A stretch of DNA of 22,396 nucleotides from a virus, in the IMG/VR virus record IMGVR_UViG_3300025543_000242, positions 1-22,396 of that record; one strand, 5' to 3'. Below the pieces are notes generated by a model. The model did no database searches. It worked only from the letters and a program-made list of their open reading frames with translations, and was not told the origin of the DNA. The position numbers and the translations under genes were made by a program. Of the stretch, positions 3,666-22,201 are shown in pieces; the first letter of the stretch is position 1, and every line of letters begins with the position of its first letter.

Positions 3666-4223
3666 TTAATATCTTTGTCCACCGCTGAGTCTTTCATATC
3701 TATTTGGCTTTACATTATCTAAAGAGATTCCTCTAAACGCTTTGCTCCTAATTGGGTTTAAATCTTCGTTTGAGTTTGTACTATATTCTGGGAATAAAGA
3801 AGAATTACTGCAAAGATAATCAGTTAACCTTTCACCAAAATGCTCGCCTCTATCTCTTTGCTTTTGCTGGTAATAATTTAATTCTGAAAGTGAAGCTGTT
3901 GAACTATTTTCTGCGTTGCTTCTGTAAACGCCACCTCTTGCAACTTGAACACTAACATCTGGTATTAATTCGCTAAAGGTGTACCAACCCAAACAAGGAG
4001 CAACCCAAGTATTAGTCAAAGTCGCATAGTTGCCAGATAAAGTGCCTGCTATTATTTCAGCAGATATTTTATTGTACAAATCTGTTCCCAAAATAGGCTC
4101 AATGAACATTCTTTGAGTCGCTAAAATTATGGTCCTTATTTTAGAATCGTCTACATTATCATTTAAAGGAGTTGTTTCCTTTAAATAGCCGATGCTGATA
4201 AACATACTCTTTGTTACACTCAT
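3666..4223 (-). CDS. head-tail connector (DUF6712-like)
   Basis: A 185-residue, largely helical protein. The N-terminal part (MFISIGYLKETTPLNDNVDD, then IILATQRMFIEPILGTDLYNKI at about 33-54) and the central aromatic helices (APCLGWYTFSELIPDV) match what I know of a Bacteroidota-phage connector family placed immediately after the portal (DUF6712-like, analogous in position to HK97 gp6). Such proteins form a ring between portal and tail and close the head after packaging. Its start overlaps the portal stop by four bases, so the two are translationally coupled. The connector role is inferred from fold type and position; no catalytic residues are expected. Confidence 0.65.
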   Translation of the reverse strand: MSVTKSMFISIGYLKETTPLNDNVDDSKIRTIILATQRMFIEPILGTDLYNKISAEIIAGTLSGNYATLTNTWVAPCLGWYTFSELIPDVSVQVARGGVYRSNAENSSTASLSELNYYQQKQRDRGEHFGERLTDYLCSNSSLFPEYSTNSNEDLNPIRSKAFRGISLDNVKPNRYERLSGGQRY

Positions 4224-8673: not shown

Positions 8674-9837
8674 TTAGGAAATAATGTATCGACCCTTGTT
8701 CGGGTTGTTAAGGTGATTGCTTGCCCAATAACGCATCGCATCAATGCCGTGATTAAAATAGCCTATGGGTTTATTTGTGGCGTTTCCATCTCTGTCTTCC
8801 TGCCATCTGTACTTTCTTAATTCATTTATTAGGTTTAGGGAATGTGATGTCACCAAAAATTCAGAACGCTGAAGTAAATCAATTCCGTGAAGAATGCTGT
8901 CCTTTCCTTTTGTTGCCCCTCTTATTTCTATTCCGTGCCTCCTTATTTCTTCAATACTTTTTGGTTCTGCTGAATCGGCTATGATGTACCTTTTAAAATC
9001 TTCTTTTGCGATAACCGCAATTTCGTTATTGGTCAATCCTGTCTGATACGTTTTTTCGTTAAATATGTATGTATTATCTAATTTATAAACGTCAATTAAG
9101 GTTGATGGGTCGTTTGTATAGCCAAAGTCACAGCCTGTACCAACGTACTTTGCTTCTTCTGGTATTATTTCAATTTGCTTCCAATTGTTAAAGACAACAC
9201 CTTGTAGTTTACCTATTTCGCCATCAATATAAACTTGACACCAATTCTTCCAATAGGCATCTTTTTTACTCCATTTTTTCCGCTGCTCTAATTCCTTTAC
9301 AATAGTATCTGGACAACCTTCGTTATCTGTGTACTTTAGCAAAAGAAATTCTGAATCTTCATTTGGCAGTATCTCAGTATGCGCCCAAAATTCATTGTCT
9401 GGGTTAAAATCTACCCAAATTGCTTTGGTAGTACGAACCATTAAAGCATCTGCAATAGTGTATTTAATGTGGTTTGCTTCATTTATGAATAAAACTTCAC
9501 GCTTTCCTGCTGCTTTTGCTTTGCTGACGTTGTCAAAAGACTTGAATTGTATGCTGCTGCCATTAAAAAAACGATATTCCCTGTCGTTTCTATTATAACT
9601 ATTATGATTAAAACGCCCTGTTTGTTCCATAATCTCAATAAATTGAGAAATAGCACCATCTTTTAAGGCTGGTATCGTTTCAGCAACAACCGTTATTTTT
9701 TCCTTTGGATTCTTTGTTGCGTAATCAATTAATACACATAAAATGCCATAGGTTTTCCCAGCAAATGTTCCTCCTTGAATTACCCTTTTTCTCTTTTGTA
9801 ATCTAAGAAGTTTCTTGACTGTTGTCGTTACTTTCAT
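8674..9837 (-). CDS. terL: terminase large subunit
   Basis: A 387-residue DNA-packaging motor. The N-terminal ATPase has Walker A GGTFAGKT (22-29), Walker B VLFINE with catalytic Glu120, and the following VDFNP coupling segment (142-146). The C-terminal RNase-H-like nuclease has the expected acidic residues: Asp237 in GCDFGY, Asp288 in IIADSAEP and Asp366 in NHGIDAMRY. It drives ATP-dependent DNA translocation through the portal and cuts the concatemer. It is short for the family but all motifs are present. Its start lies 35 bases inside the terS gene. A gap of 53 bases without an obvious terminator separates it from the scaffold-like gene. Confidence 0.95.
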   Translation of the reverse strand: MKVTTTVKKLLRLQKRKRVIQGGTFAGKTYGILCVLIDYATKNPKEKITVVAETIPALKDGAISQFIEIMEQTGRFNHNSYNRNDREYRFFNGSSIQFKSFDNVSKAKAAGKREVLFINEANHIKYTIADALMVRTTKAIWVDFNPDNEFWAHTEILPNEDSEFLLLKYTDNEGCPDTIVKELEQRKKWSKKDAYWKNWCQVYIDGEIGKLQGVVFNNWKQIEIIPEEAKYVGTGCDFGYTNDPSTLIDVYKLDNTYIFNEKTYQTGLTNNEIAVIAKEDFKRYIIADSAEPKSIEEIRRHGIEIRGATKGKDSILHGIDLLQRSEFLVTSHSLNLINELRKYRWQEDRDGNATNKPIGYFNHGIDAMRYWASNHLNNPNKGRYIIS

Positions 9838-10174
9838 TTATATGAAATAAAGGCTGTTCCTGTCGAACATTAGCATCAATCTGTTGTTTAGCATTTGCAA
9901 TCCTATAATATTCTTCTTCGTCACCGATTATTTTATACAAAGCTAATTGTAAAAGTGGGTTCTGAGAGTTGTACCATTTATTCCGCATTGAATGTTTAGT
10001 TTCAATTTTATGCTTATCCAAAAGTTGCAATATTTCTTCATCTTCGTTTAGCTTATGATTGTACGCTGTTATTCTGGTAAACGTTGTGTAAGCAAATATA
10101 TCTGAAAAGAAAAATAGTCTTTGTTTGTTTACTATATTTATTATTTGTGCTTTATATTCTTCTGTTTTTGTCAT
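9803..10174 (-). CDS. terS: terminase small subunit
   Basis: A 123-residue helical protein. The segment from about 55 to 92 (HKIETKHSMRNKWYNSQNPLLQLALYKIIGDEEEYYRI) has the pattern of Bacteroidota-phage small terminases: a lysine/arginine-rich lead, K-W-Y-x-S-x-N-P-x-L-Q-L-A-L-x-K-(I/L)-I and a terminal helix. It would bind the packaging site and present DNA to TerL, whose gene overlaps its 3' end by 35 bases. The ATG at 10172-10174 lies between the plus-strand promoter elements of the tRNA-like gene, so RNA polymerases starting in the two directions would meet here. Confidence 0.75.
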   Translation of the reverse strand: MTKTEEYKAQIINIVNKQRLFFFSDIFAYTTFTRITAYNHKLNEDEEILQLLDKHKIETKHSMRNKWYNSQNPLLQLALYKIIGDEEEYYRIANAKQQIDANVRQEQPLFHINESNDNSQETS

Positions 10175-10203: not shown

Positions 10204-10274
10204 GCGATGGAAGTGTTATTGGTTACACGCTAAGCTTCCAGCTTAGAATTGGCGTTCAAGTCGACCTCATCGCT
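10204..10274 (+). tRNA. degenerate tRNA-Gly (anticodon UCC), antisense to the mom 3' end
   Basis: A 71-base cloverleaf. The acceptor stem is GCGATGG with TCATCGC (seven pairs, one G-U). The D arm is GTGT/ACAC with GG in the loop. The anticodon stem is CTAAG/CTTAG (perfect), with loop CTTCCAG giving U33 and anticodon UCC at 10237-10239. The T loop is GTTCAAGTC, and the discriminator U is at 10274. Bases known to matter for bacterial glycyl-tRNA synthetase (G1-C72, C2-G71, G3-C70, C35, C36, U73) are all present. Oddities are that positions 8, 14 and 21 are not the usual U8, A14 and A21, and the T stem has two mismatches or a bulged A. CCA is not encoded. It may be functional, a decayed tRNA, or a tRNA-like antisense RNA. 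Confidence 0.6.
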
Positions 10275-10970
10275 CAAATTAGCCCTCCTATCTTGGAGGG
10301 TTATTTTTTCTCCTTTATACATTCCTGCACCTTGTTTATCTATTTCGCTAAAAGGAAGTATCTCTTTAGTTATGGTCATACTTTTGTTTATTAAATAAAC
10401 ATACTTTAATTGATAACCTTTTAACATTTCAACTTTATATCCTTGTTTTTCTAATTTAGGAATATCACTTTTTTTTAAAAAACTACTTGTCAAACCTAAA
10501 TCGTAAGTTCTTTTTATATGTACAACTTCATTATTTAATTTGCATATTCCAGCATTTTTAGAAACACCAACTAATTTAAATCCACTTGCTCTATATATAG
10601 TACCATCACCACATTGTGTTCCGTCTGCAAAACTTATTATCCATTTTATTTGTGGAGCATTCTTTTTAATTAAACGAATGCTAATAGCTATACATCTACT
10701 TTCAGAATACTTTGGCAGGTAATCATCAAAAGCCATTCTGTTTAATTCTATAAATTCATTCCAACCTGTATTCTCTACTAAATTAATAGTTCCTTTTTTG
10801 TTTATACTTGGTCCATATTGCATAACTCCGTGTAACTTGTCATCTAAAAAACAACCAAAATGTAAAGTACTATTAGGAACAACCTTTCCGCTATAATGAG
10901 TTTTTTTTACAAAATCATTAGCAACCTTTGAATTTATAACTTTAACAATTATCTCTTTTGCTCTGCCCAT
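10230..10970 (-). CDS. mom: Mom-family DNA modification protein (adenine modification)
   Basis: A 246-residue protein of the phage Mu Mom family, a GNAT-related enzyme that in Mu converts adenine in DNA to a carbamoylmethyl-type derivative and protects it from restriction. Family blocks visible are FVKKTHYSGKVVPNSTLHFG (20-39), GVMQYGPSINKKG (48-60), WNEFIELNRMAFDDYLPKYSESRCI (70-94), IKWIISFADGTQCGDGTIYRASGF (108-131) and ILPFSEIDKQGAGMYKGEK (205-223). The last 23 residues after GAGMYKGEK look unconserved. Their final part is encoded opposite the tRNA-like gene, and the stop codon lies in its anticodon stem. The start overlaps the upstream ParB-like gene by 22 bases. Mom is harmful to cells when overproduced, so the antisense unit may limit it; that is inference. 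Confidence 0.85.
   Translation of the reverse strand: MGRAKEIIVKVINSKVANDFVKKTHYSGKVVPNSTLHFGCFLDDKLHGVMQYGPSINKKGTINLVENTGWNEFIELNRMAFDDYLPKYSESRCIAISIRLIKKNAPQIKWIISFADGTQCGDGTIYRASGFKLVGVSKNAGICKLNNEVVHIKRTYDLGLTSSFLKKSDIPKLEKQGYKVEMLKGYQLKYVYLINKSMTITKEILPFSEIDKQGAGMYKGEKITLQDRRANLSDEVDLNANSKLEA
10281..10308 (+). terminator. plus-strand terminator of the tRNA-like gene
   Basis: AGCCCTCC (10281-10288), loop TATCTT, GGAGGGTT (10295-10302), followed by the T-rich tract through 10309. The stem has eight pairs including one G-U (10282/10301), which would be an A-C mismatch on the minus strand. The U tract is present only in the plus direction. It begins seven bases after the cloverleaf and lies inside the coding region for the mom C-terminus. 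Confidence 0.75.
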
Positions 10971-11551
10971 TGCGTAATAATTAAATAAAGTGCGTTGCCA
11001 TTACTGTTTTCGTTTTCAAAAGTTTCCATATATTTATACTCGTCAGTCTTTTTAACGTTTGCTATTGCGTTTTTAATTTCAATAGCCTGTGCATCTGCTA
11101 AAGTATATGTTTGCTGCTGGAAAGGTTCTTTATCTCCATCAGGCAAACTAAAATCATCGCTTGTATCAATATCATCCATATTCTGCCAGTTATCCAATCC
11201 CCAGCCTTCCAATTCTTCAACATTCCATTCATTAGTTAACAATTCCCAATCGTGTTCACCAAAGCCAACATTGTCAGCTATAATAAATCGCCTCGCTTCA
11301 TCCTCTGTTAAATCGTCTGCTCGCTTAACCCATTCAATAGGCACTTCTTTATAGCCCAACTCTTTTAAAGCCTTTAAACGCATATTGCCACCTAATACGA
11401 TACTGTCGGAATTTAAGACCATTGGCCTAAGCTCCATCATTTTAGGAAATTCCTTTATTGATTGAACCAGCTTTTTGAACTTGTCATCTTTTATTACTCT
11501 TGGATTATTTGGATTGCTTTTTATAGCACTTAATTTAATTGAATTTTCCAT
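10949..11551 (-). CDS. ParB/sulfiredoxin-fold domain protein
   Basis: A 200-residue protein with an N-terminal ParB/Srx domain: the start IKLSAIKSNPNNPRVIKDDKFKKLVQSI, then LRPMVLNSDSIVLGGNMRLKALKELGYKEVPI (41-72), where GGNMR (54-58) takes the place of the G-E-R-R motif of chromosomal ParB. This version is common in phages next to terminase or DNA-modification genes. It may bind nucleotide and DNA, but the reaction is not settled. Residues 96-125 are Trp-rich (WELLTNEWNVEELEGWGLDNW), followed by an acidic linker and a helical C-terminus. The 22-base overlap with mom suggests coupled translation and a shared task in DNA modification. Confidence 0.8.
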   Translation of the reverse strand: MENSIKLSAIKSNPNNPRVIKDDKFKKLVQSIKEFPKMMELRPMVLNSDSIVLGGNMRLKALKELGYKEVPIEWVKRADDLTEDEARRFIIADNVGFGEHDWELLTNEWNVEELEGWGLDNWQNMDDIDTSDDFSLPDGDKEPFQQQTYTLADAQAIEIKNAIANVKKTDEYKYMETFENENSNGNALYLIITQWAEQKR

Positions 11552-11563
11552 AATACGAATGTA

Positions 11564-12160
11564 CTATTTTATTATTTCATTTAAAAATGATTCAGACTCA
11601 GCCACTATTTTGGAAAGTGTTTCACCGTTTTCCTTGACTTCTAATTTATTCGCAAAATATGCCTCAATTGAAAAGCCTTTGGCGTTTCCGCTTTTTATCT
11701 GGTCTTCCCAGATTCTTTCGTTGTCAACTTTTACTGCAACCATCCACGTTCCAATCGGAACATTCAAGCCGTAATCTTTGCTTTTGTCGTTCTCACTTTC
11801 AACAATCCAAGATTCAGCAACATAAAGCCCATCTATATCTTTTTCGTGCTGCAAAGTATGATTGTGATGTGCATTGCTTTTAAGGAAGCGATAAGCTGCT
11901 TTTTTTACCGTGTCCTTTGAAAAATAAACGTAGTAATCATTTTCCTCCGCATCCTTTCTGTAAATCTGTTTGTTTGGAATTAATGCAGCCCCTACAAGCA
12001 TCTTTTTTTCTTCATCAACTTGAGCCAAACTGTACTTGGTTTGTCCATCTTTTGATAGTGCTATAAAATTTGATTCTATTGCTGGAAAATCAACAATTGA
12101 AATGGCATAGATGCCACCTTCTTCTTCTTCGTTTAGTACTAATTCTACTATTTTGGTCAT
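11564..12160 (-). CDS. XkdF-type prohead protease
   Basis: A 198-residue protein of the putative serine protease XkdF family (prohead protease). Visible features are YAISIVDFPAIESNFIAL (18-35), LVGAALIPNKQIYRKD (55-70), the His-containing block HHNHTLQHEKDIDGLYVAESWIVES (98-122, probable catalytic His105) and GTWMVAVKVDNERIWEDQIKSGNAKGFSIEAYF (137-169, probable nucleophile Ser164). It would process scaffold and capsid during maturation. Its ATG overlaps the tape-measure stop by four bases. It is unusually far from the capsid gene, separated by ParB-like, mom and terminase genes, and follows a tail gene. Confidence 0.8.
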   Translation of the reverse strand: MTKIVELVLNEEEEGGIYAISIVDFPAIESNFIALSKDGQTKYSLAQVDEEKKMLVGAALIPNKQIYRKDAEENDYYVYFSKDTVKKAAYRFLKSNAHHNHTLQHEKDIDGLYVAESWIVESENDKSKDYGLNVPIGTWMVAVKVDNERIWEDQIKSGNAKGFSIEAYFANKLEVKENGETLSKIVAESESFLNEIIK

Positions 12161-13818
12161 AATGTTGCTCTTTGTCTTATTCGTTTATCCAATGCATTTT
12201 GGTTGCTTATGTCGTTCTGTACAACATACGCCCTAACATTGTTTTGGTTATTATTTTGATTAGGATTAAAAGTTGGTATCGCTGAAATTGTAGGCGTTGA
12301 TGCTTGGAAGCCTGCTCCTGCTCCTCCAAAAGATGGAGCTGAAATGTTACCACCTCCTCCACCAGCTCCAAGTTTACTCGATGCTGATTTGGCTGTCCTT
12401 ACAGCACTTGCAATTGAAGCAAAAATGCCTGCTGTTTGAGCTGCAAAACCTAAAAGCAAAGGAATGTTTGCAGGAAATGGAACTGCTGCTGCTGTTTTCA
12501 TTGCTCCTGAACTTGCATCAACTGCTGCTTCTGCTGCTCTTGCTGTTATCTTTCCCAATGTAGCTTTTGCTGCTGCAATTTGCTCTGCAATTAGTAGCCC
12601 TTGTTTAAATAAAAATATACCTTTACTTATCTTTGATTCCTCTCCTGCTATTGTTCTAACTGCGTCTAAAGTAGCATATATATTTGCCCTTTTTTCTTCT
12701 TCTATTTTTTTCTGCGCCTCAGATAAACCTTTAATTCTGAGCAATTCCTCATCATCATTTTGTGTTTTTCTGTCAGCAAGTTCTTGATTTAATCCGACTT
12801 CATTAATTAATTGTTCTGAACGGAATCCTTCTATTTGGGCTAAAACAGCCTTTCTTTCGTTCTCCGCTTGAAGTAAAGCAATATAGTTTTCTTGGCTTGC
12901 ATTCTTATCGAAATTTAATTGAGCTGAAGCAATTTGAATGTCAACATTTGCAAGCATTAATTTTTGCTGTTCTTCTAATATTTCGCCTAATTTATTATTT
13001 GCAATTATTCTTTCTTCAATTGTCTTGCTGGTGTCATCCCTTATTTGTCTTTGCTGTTCTGCCTGTCTGTCGTAATCTTCAATAAGCCCTTGATTAATTA
13101 CAGCACTCAGTTCAGCTTGTTTATTTAATTCAACAGCAGCGCTTGCAGCCTTTACAGTTGATGCTGCATACTCAGTAATTCCCTTTACTATTTTAGGCAA
13201 TGTTTCAGCTATTTTATCGACTGAATTATTAACTCCTGTAAAAACATCAATTGATTCTTTACCAGCTTGCTTTGTAGCTTCTAAAGCTCCTACAAAATCT
13301 CCTGCAAAAACCTTTTTTACTGCTATTGCTAAAAAGCCTAATGTATCTAAAAAGCTATTAAATCTTTCTACTAAATTTTCTTTTACAGCGTTTCCAAACT
13401 CAATCAATTTTTGTTTAGGGTCTTCAAAAAGACTTTTAAATGCGGCAACAATAGTCCCTGTGCTGCTCATTATAAACTTGAAGAAGTCATTAAAGGCAAT
13501 GCTTAGAGCCTCAAAAGCTGTTGCACTTGCATCCATAATAACTTGATTTTCACCAAGCACTTCTTTAAATAAATTAAATGCCTCTATGACTAAGCCAATA
13601 CCCATAGCCTTCAATGCTAACCCAAAACCCTTAACTCCTTTCGCTGCTTTTTTAAAGTTACTGTCTAAATCTTTGGTTGCTTTTCCTGTTGCTTCTGTTG
13701 CTTTTTTATTGTCATCAATAGAGCCTTTCATCTCTTTTAAAACGTCAACAACGTCATTTAAATTAGCTTCCGCTTTTTGTGTGTCAACCTCTAAATCTAC
13801 TGCTATTGTCTTTGCCAT
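12157..13818 (-). CDS. tail tape measure protein
   Basis: A 553-residue, mostly helical protein with Ala/Lys-rich N-terminal coiled coil (about 10-60), hydrophobic segments at about 66-88 and 105-126, long central coiled coils (about 225-370, rich in Gln/Glu/Asn), a C-terminal hydrophobic stretch (AAAVPFPANIPLLLGFAAQTAGIFASIASAV, about 443-473) and a glycine-rich then Asn/Gln-rich tail. This composition and its size relative to neighbours identify the tape measure, which sets tail length and is ejected ahead of the DNA. At the usual rule of about 0.15 nm per residue, the tail would be near 80 nm. Its start forms a TAATG junction with the 47-residue ORF upstream. Confidence 0.85.
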   Translation of the reverse strand: MAKTIAVDLEVDTQKAEANLNDVVDVLKEMKGSIDDNKKATEATGKATKDLDSNFKKAAKGVKGFGLALKAMGIGLVIEAFNLFKEVLGENQVIMDASATAFEALSIAFNDFFKFIMSSTGTIVAAFKSLFEDPKQKLIEFGNAVKENLVERFNSFLDTLGFLAIAVKKVFAGDFVGALEATKQAGKESIDVFTGVNNSVDKIAETLPKIVKGITEYAASTVKAASAAVELNKQAELSAVINQGLIEDYDRQAEQQRQIRDDTSKTIEERIIANNKLGEILEEQQKLMLANVDIQIASAQLNFDKNASQENYIALLQAENERKAVLAQIEGFRSEQLINEVGLNQELADRKTQNDDEELLRIKGLSEAQKKIEEEKRANIYATLDAVRTIAGEESKISKGIFLFKQGLLIAEQIAAAKATLGKITARAAEAAVDASSGAMKTAAAVPFPANIPLLLGFAAQTAGIFASIASAVRTAKSASSKLGAGGGGGNISAPSFGGAGAGFQASTPTISAIPTFNPNQNNNQNNVRAYVVQNDISNQNALDKRIRQRATL

Positions 13819-17708: not shown

Positions 17709-18290
17709 CTATCTTAAATTTTCTTTTATTGTAAAATCCAAAAGTTTATCTACGCTTATGCTCATAGCCTCCTCTATTTTTGGTGTTAATTTTTTAAAGT
17801 TCTTTTCGAAAGCAGCAGAGAAAAACTCCGTTGCTCGTATTCCCTTATTCCAGATTGACCTTCTAATAATAAAGGCAGTTGATTCATAGCTTAAAAATTG
17901 GCCTCTTGTTCCTTCTTGTCTACTTTGAAACTGAAAGCGTCTGGCCCTTACCCATTTATTAATTCCTTTTGTAAGGCCTCCTTTTTTGCCTTTACCGCTT
18001 CCAAATCTTGGTTTACTATCTCCGTCTGTCTTATATTTTTCTTGCGCTCTTGCTGTTTCTGGATAGGTGCTTTTTGTTCCTTTTACTCCTATATCTTGGA
18101 ATATGCCATAATCATCCATATTAATGACAAAGCGAAACCCACCTTTATACCCTTCAAATTCGTAATCTAAAGAGCGTGAAAGGTTGCCGCTTACATCTTT
18201 ATCCTTTGCGGCTAAATTAGAACGTGCATCCTTAACGACCTTCTTTCCAAAGTCATCAAAAGCCTTCTTTATTTCTTCAGTATCAAACAA
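17709..18290 (-). CDS. HK97 gp10-like tail completion/neck protein
   Basis: A 193-residue basic protein. FVINMDDYGIFQDIGVKGTKS (about 54-74) and the C-terminal FIIRRSIWNKGIRATEFFSAAFEKNFKKL (about 140-168) match the pattern of HK97 gp10-type proteins: a Y-G-x-F-x-(E/D)-x-G segment and a final helix pair after G-I-x-x-x-x-F. Such proteins join tail and neck. No ATG exists near the start; the frame begins at TTG (18288-18290), preceded by a run of eight A, so TTG initiation is likely. The stop lies directly before the Dit-like ATG. Confidence 0.7.
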   Translation of the reverse strand: MFDTEEIKKAFDDFGKKVVKDARSNLAAKDKDVSGNLSRSLDYEFEGYKGGFRFVINMDDYGIFQDIGVKGTKSTYPETARAQEKYKTDGDSKPRFGSGKGKKGGLTKGINKWVRARRFQFQSRQEGTRGQFLSYESTAFIIRRSIWNKGIRATEFFSAAFEKNFKKLTPKIEEAMSISVDKLLDFTIKENLR

Positions 18291-20905: not shown

Positions 20906-21418
20906 TTATTGTACTGTAAATGTATCTTCTATTATCCAAACTCCAATGCCATCGCTTATAGTTGCGTCATAAATAATTGAATCAGCACAACCTGTTTTCG
21001 CATATTTTACGGTGATATCTAATGAAGCAGTCCAGGCCAACATCCTATCATTTTTATCGATGTTTGGAGAACTTGGGGAAATTGAAATGTCTGTATCTAA
21101 ACTGTAATTTGTGTAATCTTTAAAGAGGTTACCATTTGCAAACTGGCCGATAACGTCTTGAATCATATCGAAAAGTTTCGAGTCAACTTCTAAATCATCG
21201 CTCCTGTCTTTGCTTGGGATATCAAAGCAAGTAAGTAAGATTGTAAAGGTGACAAACCCTTTTCCACTTTGGCTGCCTTGAGGCTCTACCAAAAGAGCAG
21301 GTAACTTGTCTGTCTTTGTGTCTAATTGGATTGAATCTCCGTAGTAAAATGAAGTGATTTGGGGATGCGCTGTTGCCAGCTCCTTAATTTCATTTACTAC
21401 TTGGTAAAGTGTCTGCAT
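20906..21418 (-). CDS. tail terminator-like protein
   Basis: A 170-residue protein (MQTLYQVVNEIKELATAHPQ) with the layout of a family frequent in Bacteroidota phages. It has an N-terminal helix, the strand YYGDSIQLDTKTDKLPALLVEPQGS (about 25-49), FVTFTILLTCFDIPSKDRSDDLEVDSKLFDMIQDVIGQ (55-92) and a final segment DRMLAWTASLDITVKYAKTGC (123-143). These fit tail-terminator or tail-to-head joining proteins (gpU-like), which cap the tube at its head end. It precedes the fibre gene by eight bases and follows the tail chaperone. The C-terminal 27 residues after the Cys are extra. Confidence 0.6.
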   Translation of the reverse strand: MQTLYQVVNEIKELATAHPQITSFYYGDSIQLDTKTDKLPALLVEPQGSQSGKGFVTFTILLTCFDIPSKDRSDDLEVDSKLFDMIQDVIGQFANGNLFKDYTNYSLDTDISISPSSPNIDKNDRMLAWTASLDITVKYAKTGCADSIIYDATISDGIGVWIIEDTFTVQ

Positions 21419-21437: not shown

Positions 21438-21689
21438 TCACGTTCTGTTTTTCTTTAATCTATTTGTTTGCTGTTCATTCTTGTCTTTTCGATACATCAG
21501 AAATAATAAAGCCTTTTCAATAGGGATTTCACCGACTGCATCTAACTTCAAAACGTCATCGTTTGCTAACTCAATTAAGAAGTGGTACCAGCCCCATTCG
21601 ATTGTTCTGCTTGTCTTAAAAGTTTCCTTCGTTCCCTTCTGCTCAAAGAGGTATGCGAAGTTTGTAATAACTCGTTTCTCAAAGTCCAA
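21438..21689 (-). CDS. frameshifted C-terminal half of tail assembly chaperone
   Basis: A frame of 83 codons lacking an ATG. It opens only 18 bases upstream of the T run and can be entered by a -1 shift on that run from the 208-codon frame. The product (FEKRVITNFAYLFEQKGTKE, then IEWGWYHFLIELANDDVLKLDAV and PIEKALLFLMYRKDKNEQQ) looks like a genuine folded protein. WGWY-x-x-(I/L)-x-x-LA-x-x-D and the final L-x-F-L-x-(Y/F)-x-K-(D/E)-K motif fit the second half of Bacteroidota-phage tail chaperones. It is therefore read as the extension of the upstream gene, analogous to lambda gpG-T, giving a fusion of about 254 residues. A homopolymer error in the sequence is the alternative. Confidence 0.65.
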   Translation of the reverse strand: MDFEKRVITNFAYLFEQKGTKETFKTSRTIEWGWYHFLIELANDDVLKLDAVGEIPIEKALLFLMYRKDKNEQQTNRLKKNRT

Positions 21690-22201
21690 AAAAAAACAAT
21701 AGAACCGTCAACTGCTTCGCAAGGAAAATGCTCTTTAAAAAGTTCATCCCTGCCTTCTAAGCCAGTATAAGACTCCAGCCTATACAATCCGCTTGCTTCT
21801 TGAATTATGGGTCTGTAAAGCACAGCTAATATTTTATGGAGGTTTTCTGAAAACCCTTTCTTTTCAAACTCCTGAATGTCTGCAAACTCGCTTGTACTTA
21901 TGTCGCTCAAGTTGCTGTGCATTCCGTATTCCTTCCCCTTTATTGTTACCCTTTGAAATAGCTTGCTTTCGCCTTGCTGAAACAGATTAACAACCGTTTG
22001 GAATATCTCCTCCAACTTTGATACTGGCAATTTTTCAATCTTGGATAGGTCACCCTTAACAAAGATGTTTATTACCTGTATCATATAAGAAACTTGATCA
22101 ATTTCCTTTTCGCTAATCTCGTCTTGTAGCTTCAAAAAAAGCTGGTATTGATTCAATTTTATCTCGTCAATACTTTCAGGCACTACATATTTAATCTTCA
22201 T
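21575..22201 (-). CDS. tail assembly chaperone, zero-frame product
   Basis: A 208-residue protein. The first 171 residues (MKIKYVVPESIDEIKLNQYQ, helices around 15-75, GKEYGMHSNLSDISTSEFADIQEF at about 89-112, HKILAVLYRPIIQEASGLYRLESYTG at about 122-147, and DGSIVFF) match what I know of the tail-chaperone family in flavobacterial phages. They fold as mostly helices and coat the tape measure during tail assembly. After the T run at 21688-21696 the zero frame adds 37 basic, low-quality-looking residues (RRERRKLLRQAEQ), whereas the -1 frame continues with family-like sequence. Its ATG overlaps the stop of the upstream CxxC gene. Confidence 0.7.
   Translation of the reverse strand: MKIKYVVPESIDEIKLNQYQLFLKLQDEISEKEIDQVSYMIQVINIFVKGDLSKIEKLPVSKLEEIFQTVVNLFQQGESKLFQRVTIKGKEYGMHSNLSDISTSEFADIQEFEKKGFSENLHKILAVLYRPIIQEASGLYRLESYTGLEGRDELFKEHFPCEAVDGSIVFFWTLRNELLQTSHTSLSRRERRKLLRQAEQSNGAGTTS
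21688..21697 (-). other. slippery homopolymer, probable -1 frameshift site
   Basis: The minus strand has G followed by nine T and then GG (21697 down to 21686). In the chaperone frame this is GTT TTT TTT TGG, which contains the slippery heptamer T TTT TTT. Slipping back one base joins residue 171 of the 208-codon frame to the TTG GAC TTT frame ending at 21438. One extra T in the genome would give the same fusion without slipping. Confidence 0.6.

Follow-up and report, generated by a model that had tools for sequence, protein, structure and literature searches.

The frameshift gene and its two reading frames

The window, that is, the whole stretch of DNA analyzed here, is a 22,396-base IMG/VR virus record of an aquatic-type phage with its late genes on the minus strand. 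On this strand a run of nine T (T9), located at 21688..21696, constitutes the slip site of a gene with two overlapping reading frames. The run is read in the codons GTT TTT TTT TGG and contains an in-frame T_TTT_TTT heptamer of the X_XXY_YYZ form, which is non-discriminating because a T9 run contains it at any phase. The zero-frame ORF (21575..22201, minus strand) encodes a 208-aa protein, the short form, which matches phrog_32199 (E 2.8e-9); in profile searches this PHROG was matched by 32/32 members of the family. The -1 frame provides an extension of 83 codons plus a stop (21438..21689, minus strand), which resembles phrog_38404 and carries a conserved WGWYH motif. A -1 shift at the T9 run yields a 254-aa product, consisting of residues 1-171 of the zero frame followed by the -1 tail. 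Between 21575 and 21687 (minus strand) the DNA is dual-coded, as the zero-frame tail and the -1 tail overlap there; synonymous change is suppressed in both frames and the zero frame is kept open.

The initial annotation of this DNA had recognized the nine-T run, its in-frame heptamer and both overlapping frames, all of which were found where it had placed them. It had also described the downstream frame as 83 codons without an ATG; the length was correct, but one ATG is present at about codon 65 of the 83. Among relatives, the first ATG of the -1 frame lies mostly far downstream or is absent (41 clusters), and independent initiation of this frame was discarded on that basis. The proposal of a zero-frame tail dissimilar to the family had to be abandoned, since this tail, WTLRNELLQTSHTSL...NGAGTTS, aligns with the zero-frame tails of the relatives, whose typical pattern is YxLGNELLxxTLxYL...NGDGI. 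Tail lengths in the relatives (44 clusters) are usually 16-90 aa in the zero frame and 74-93 aa in the -1 frame.

Conservation of the T9 run among related phages

Relatives of the gene are encoded in at least 549 IMG/VR stretches. Wider searches for relatives gave a set of 171 related phage loci with the -1 arrangement, and a further locus with a single open frame, L027, was counted apart. The run was exactly T9 in 168 of the 171 loci and T10 with the frame kept in 3, and T8 was never found. In the T10 loci with a kept frame the additional T takes the place of a base at the edge of the run, as in L099, where TAC is read as TTC. Run length was nine in all 44 clusters (<70% identity), and all nine positions were T in the 42/42 clusters compared, the run's three wobble positions among them. 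Two IMG/VR contigs from other metagenomes, L002 and L003, also have an exact T9. Across related loci totalling about 579 kb, we counted 141 sense T9 runs versus 21 T8 runs, and the majority of the T9 runs were at this one site, so that T9 occurs at the slip site more often than expected by chance.

Two cultured phages with complete genomes, Nonlabens phages P12024L and P12024S, encode homologues that have this T9 too, read in the same codon phase (CTT TTT TTT TAT). In contrast to the single two-frame gene described here, their halves (genes 40-41 of P12024L and genes 38-39 of P12024S) have been entered as two distinct hypothetical proteins; these measure 175 and 55 aa, as phrog_32199 and phrog_38404 do, and the second was given an ATG start overlapping the first stop. 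In P12024L this TAATG overlap (L006, 8292-8296) would allow translational coupling at that place. No relatives were confirmed in the genome collection GTDB, which was scanned with narrow search patterns, so the host range was inferred from the two isolates only; they make Flavobacteria the likely hosts.

In BFVD, both domain models hit several proteins of 226-267 aa, which, on these structure matches, may be single-frame long forms. Another BFVD match, protein R9VW65 of Flavobacterium phage 6H, has no T9, the longest T run near the end of its gene being six; it was excluded from the T9 count for this reason and because homology in its -1 frame lacked demonstration. In L079 the -1 frame is interrupted by another shift past the WGWY motif, for which a sequencing error in this contig is the probable cause.

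A conserved homopolymer and a single fused gene had been set against each other in the initial annotation, and the relatives carry the homopolymer, a single open frame with T10 being found, among the 172 loci, in L027 alone. A homopolymer within a coding region, together with this one T10 indel variant, could also bring to mind phase variation, in which replication slippage would toggle the T9 gene between states. Yet a phase-variable tract would show mixed lengths, whereas an indel difference at the run was seen in just 1/172 loci and T8 in none, which leaves phase variation with hardly any probability.

Dual coding of the overlap

Codon-position differences were computed in 29 pairs. Upstream of the T9 run, the pairwise differences were 3.8, 1.9 and 17.0% at codon positions 1, 2 and 3, respectively. 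In the overlap they were 0.9, 4.6 and 4.2% at zero-frame positions 1, 2 and 3, with a total roughly half of that upstream and a minimum (0.9%) at zero-frame position 1, the position that is wobble in neither frame. Past the zero-frame stop the values changed to 2.1, 12.0 and 3.0%, the 12.0% corresponding to the third position of the -1 frame. Zero-frame synonymous change per codon dropped about 4-fold, from 0.151 upstream to 0.036 in the overlap (Fisher p 7e-37), and -1-frame synonymous change was lower in the overlap than after it (Fisher p 3e-8). Moreover, the open stretch of the zero frame has a median length of 55.5 codons, versus a median of 5 expected when the -1 codons are shuffled among synonyms. 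The overlap codes for two C-termini that are both under selection, and both proteins are therefore probably needed. From these sequence comparisons we infer that the T9 gene produces both the short and the long protein. The +1 frame past the run meets a stop after two codons in nearly all of 44 clusters, which may be a by-product of the dual coding.

These data bear on the other possibility raised in the initial annotation, a sequencing or assembly error hiding a true gene with ten T and one plain ORF. Such a sequence does exist in the collection, as L027 has T10 and a single open 254-aa frame, and its 91%-identical neighbours have T9. However, T9 is kept in loci from many metagenomes and in both isolates, the overlap is constrained in both frames, and the zero frame remains open far beyond chance. 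An error is thus extremely improbable and we reject the artefact reading: the T9 run and the two overlapping frames at 22201..21438 represent a programmed frameshift, and the -1 shift that had been proposed at the T run is strongly supported.

Gene neighbourhood

Immediately downstream of the frameshift gene, a gene for a 170-aa protein (20906..21418, minus strand) takes the position of a gene of about 150 aa in the relatives, where it belongs to phrog_30964. A Neck1/tail-completion-like connector gene (phrog_29822, phrog_5) is found at 17709..18290 (minus strand). In the window, three genes between 18297 and 20939 (minus strand), encoding a tail-fibre-like protein of 479 aa, a glycine-rich protein of 292 aa and a protein of 106 aa, separate the 170-aa gene from the Neck1-like gene, whereas their counterparts are adjacent in relatives. 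A tape-measure-like gene of 553 aa (12157..13818, minus strand) lies downstream of the frameshift gene, some 8 kb away and in the same direction; in the window and the relatives together this distance is 5-8 kb. The tape-measure assignment is based on a relative of this gene in L103, which matches phrog_1535 and phrog_32985, and on P12024L gp50, which belongs to phrog_32985 and matches tape-measure families (phrog_9483, E 5.6e-12). Thus the window, the relatives and P12024L all have the tape-measure-like gene of a long-tailed phage.

The gene order in relatives is TerL, the T9 gene, the gene of about 150 aa, the Neck1-like gene, at least two large genes, the tape-measure-like gene, protease, scaffold-like gene, capsid, genes of about 180 and 112 aa, and portal. 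The T9 gene is therefore not placed between a major tail protein and the tape measure gene; at least four genes intervene before the latter, and TerL or an unrelated gene is found upstream.

Other genes of the window were also recorded. Its TerS/TerL genes (8674-10174, minus strand) come after a Mom gene, while several relatives have TerL just upstream of the frameshift gene, which denotes a module move. The gene at 10230-10970 (minus strand) encodes the Mom-family protein (PF25680, E 1.3e-48) and is adjoined by an ORF (10949-11551) that appears ParB-like by eye; judging from these two sequences, DNA modification by the window phage is likely. A DUF6712 protein (3666-4223, minus strand; E 1e-22), encoded next to the portal gene, is probably a connector.

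Probable function of the two products

Two products made by a -1 shift are typical of tail chaperones, and the initial annotation had assigned the gene to the lambda gpG/gpGT type. Based on sequence and analogy, we consider that the T9 gene is a two-product gene whose short and long forms are most likely tail-assembly chaperones in the manner of lambda gpG/gpGT or P2 gpE/gpE+E' (probability about 0.7). In this scheme the tape measure protein would be bound through the N-domain that the two forms share, and recruitment of tail tube subunits would fall to the long form, the scarcer of the two. We infer both this chaperone function and the short/long ratio.

The T9 gene would be organized like lambda G/GT and P2 E/E+E'. 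It shares with the lambda pair a -1 shift close to where the first frame ends, a common N-terminal part, and the presence of a tape measure gene among the late genes. The two differ in the slip site, which is GGGAAAG in lambda and a pure T9 here, and in the overlap, which is much longer in the T9 gene and includes a conserved zero-frame tail. In addition, lambda T runs into H, whereas the T9 gene lies away from the tape measure gene, and no sequence similarity between lambda gpG/gpGT and the T9 family was detected. P2 gpE/gpE+E' is likewise a tail protein with a -1 frameshift annotated in its record, and it has in common with 5/32 T9-family members a match to phrog_166, annotated as tail protein (best 1.3e-4 in the family, 4e-7 for P2 gpE). 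On the other hand, P2 gpE has just 91 aa, and E+E' is directly before the tape measure gene T, in contrast to the 5-8 kb that separate the T9 gene from its own. In three phage records the T9 gene is the sole phrog_166 match; one member also matched Phage_TAC_7 below the cut-off, as the sole such match in its record. The gpG/gpGT-type identity is therefore plausible through the phrog_166 link to P2 gpE and through a late operon that also includes a tape-measure-like gene, but the T9 gene lies elsewhere than the canonical site next to the tape measure gene.

Searches of curated families gave no Pfam or NCBIfam call for the T9 gene, and hhalign of the family profile against single sequences of lambda G/T, P2 E, Mu gp41 and the TP901-1 chaperones revealed no similarity. 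A PDB sequence search with both profiles gave no match. The predicted structure of the zero-frame protein (pLDDT 80) consists mainly of helices and also has beta hairpins, and that of the -1 tail (pLDDT 69), which carries the WGWYH motif, is helical. Foldseek found no match against PDB at E <= 0.001, the best VIA-align Z of 3.0 was not meaningful, and the significant BFVD structure matches were uncharacterised phage proteins only.

The position of the gene in relatives, between TerL and connector-type genes, beside the gene of about 150 aa and the Neck1-like gene and away from the tape measure gene, would also suit a two-product neck or other virion protein, for instance a connector with a rare extended form. 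We regard this as unlikely, given the link of the N-domain to phrog_166 and P2 gpE and a -1 shift with two products of the kind seen in tail chaperones. A tail-assembly-chaperone role is the best reading, plausible but weakly supported, and formal membership is not claimed.

Ribosomal or transcriptional slippage

At the T9 run, standard reading would give the 208-aa protein, and some of the readings would slip by -1 to give the 254-aa protein. The slip would be either a -1 tandem tRNA slippage of the ribosome on U_UUU_UUU or the addition of one U by the RNA polymerase on T9. To our knowledge, the described tail-chaperone frameshifts are all ribosomal. Because of these cases we narrowly prefer ribosomal tandem slippage, to which we give an even chance. 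The initial annotation had assumed a shift of this type; the -1 direction stands, and slippage of the polymerase is about equally likely. The latter, with close to even odds in our estimate, would produce transcripts with U9 or U10, and the U10 messages would be read straight into the -1 frame.

Several features agree with polymerase slippage. The exact nine T are kept in 168/171 loci though the heptamer requires just seven. In two lineages (L022; L158 and L159) the run lies in another codon phase, with Gly or Ser before it, and is again nine. At the usual phase the second Phe codon is never TTC, though this change would be synonymous in both frames; upstream in the gene, Phe is encoded by TTT in 80% of cases and Val by GTT in about 37%. 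Neither a 3' structure nor a clear Shine-Dalgarno-like stimulator was found: the mean folding z downstream was +0.11 vs -0.01 in controls, pseudoknots being outside the folding model, and the upstream Shine-Dalgarno-like score was 3.36 vs 3.11, with no clear excess. Flavobacterium johnsoniae and its class seldom use Shine-Dalgarno pairing (PMC8710568). The early stop of off-frame +1 readings points in the same direction, although coding constraint alone could suffice to explain it. Against these arguments, each of the two T flanking the heptamer occupies the second position of a hydrophobic codon, one T in either frame, so that amino-acid constraint alone could keep the run at nine, and the known tail-chaperone cases are ribosomal.

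Published data on homopolymeric runs can be set beside these features. In Escherichia coli, ribosomes slip poorly on U_UUU_UUU in comparison with A_AAA_AAG (PMC5009743). Transcriptional slippage occurs on runs of eight or nine or more A/T (PMC3711429, PMC1088944), a length that the conserved nine T at the frame junction matches. In many bacterial genomes, selection against A/T runs also becomes apparent from a length of nine, and runs of 9A/9T serve gene expression (PMC1088944). In dnaX of Thermus thermophilus a homopolymer of nine, A9, gives two products by transcriptional slippage; it differs from the T9 gene in being a cellular gene with an A run and in that the dnaX zero frame leads to the long form (PMC1088944, PMC5009743). 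Since the run is still nine where the codon phase differs, the invariant nine and the runs in other phases favour, at the sequence level, a length-dependent and possibly transcriptional mechanism.

Significance

The T9 frameshift is real and was previously unannotated, and no description of the site was found in the literature searched. In spite of its presence in so many IMG/VR stretches, the family is without an assigned function in PHROGs, and no Pfam or NCBIfam entry was found for it; gene callers overlook the long form or break it in two. The overlap offers a well-sampled example of how two C-termini evolve while sharing their DNA. Tentatively, a widespread phage group would set the ratio of two assembly proteins by polymerase slippage on an exact T9 instead of ribosomal frameshifting, and would have two conserved C-terminal domains encoded by overprinting in a single stretch of DNA. 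The invariant T9 provides a clean system for asking whether phages set a protein ratio by transcriptional slippage, and the likely hosts, Flavobacteria that hardly use Shine-Dalgarno pairing, are a setting for that question.
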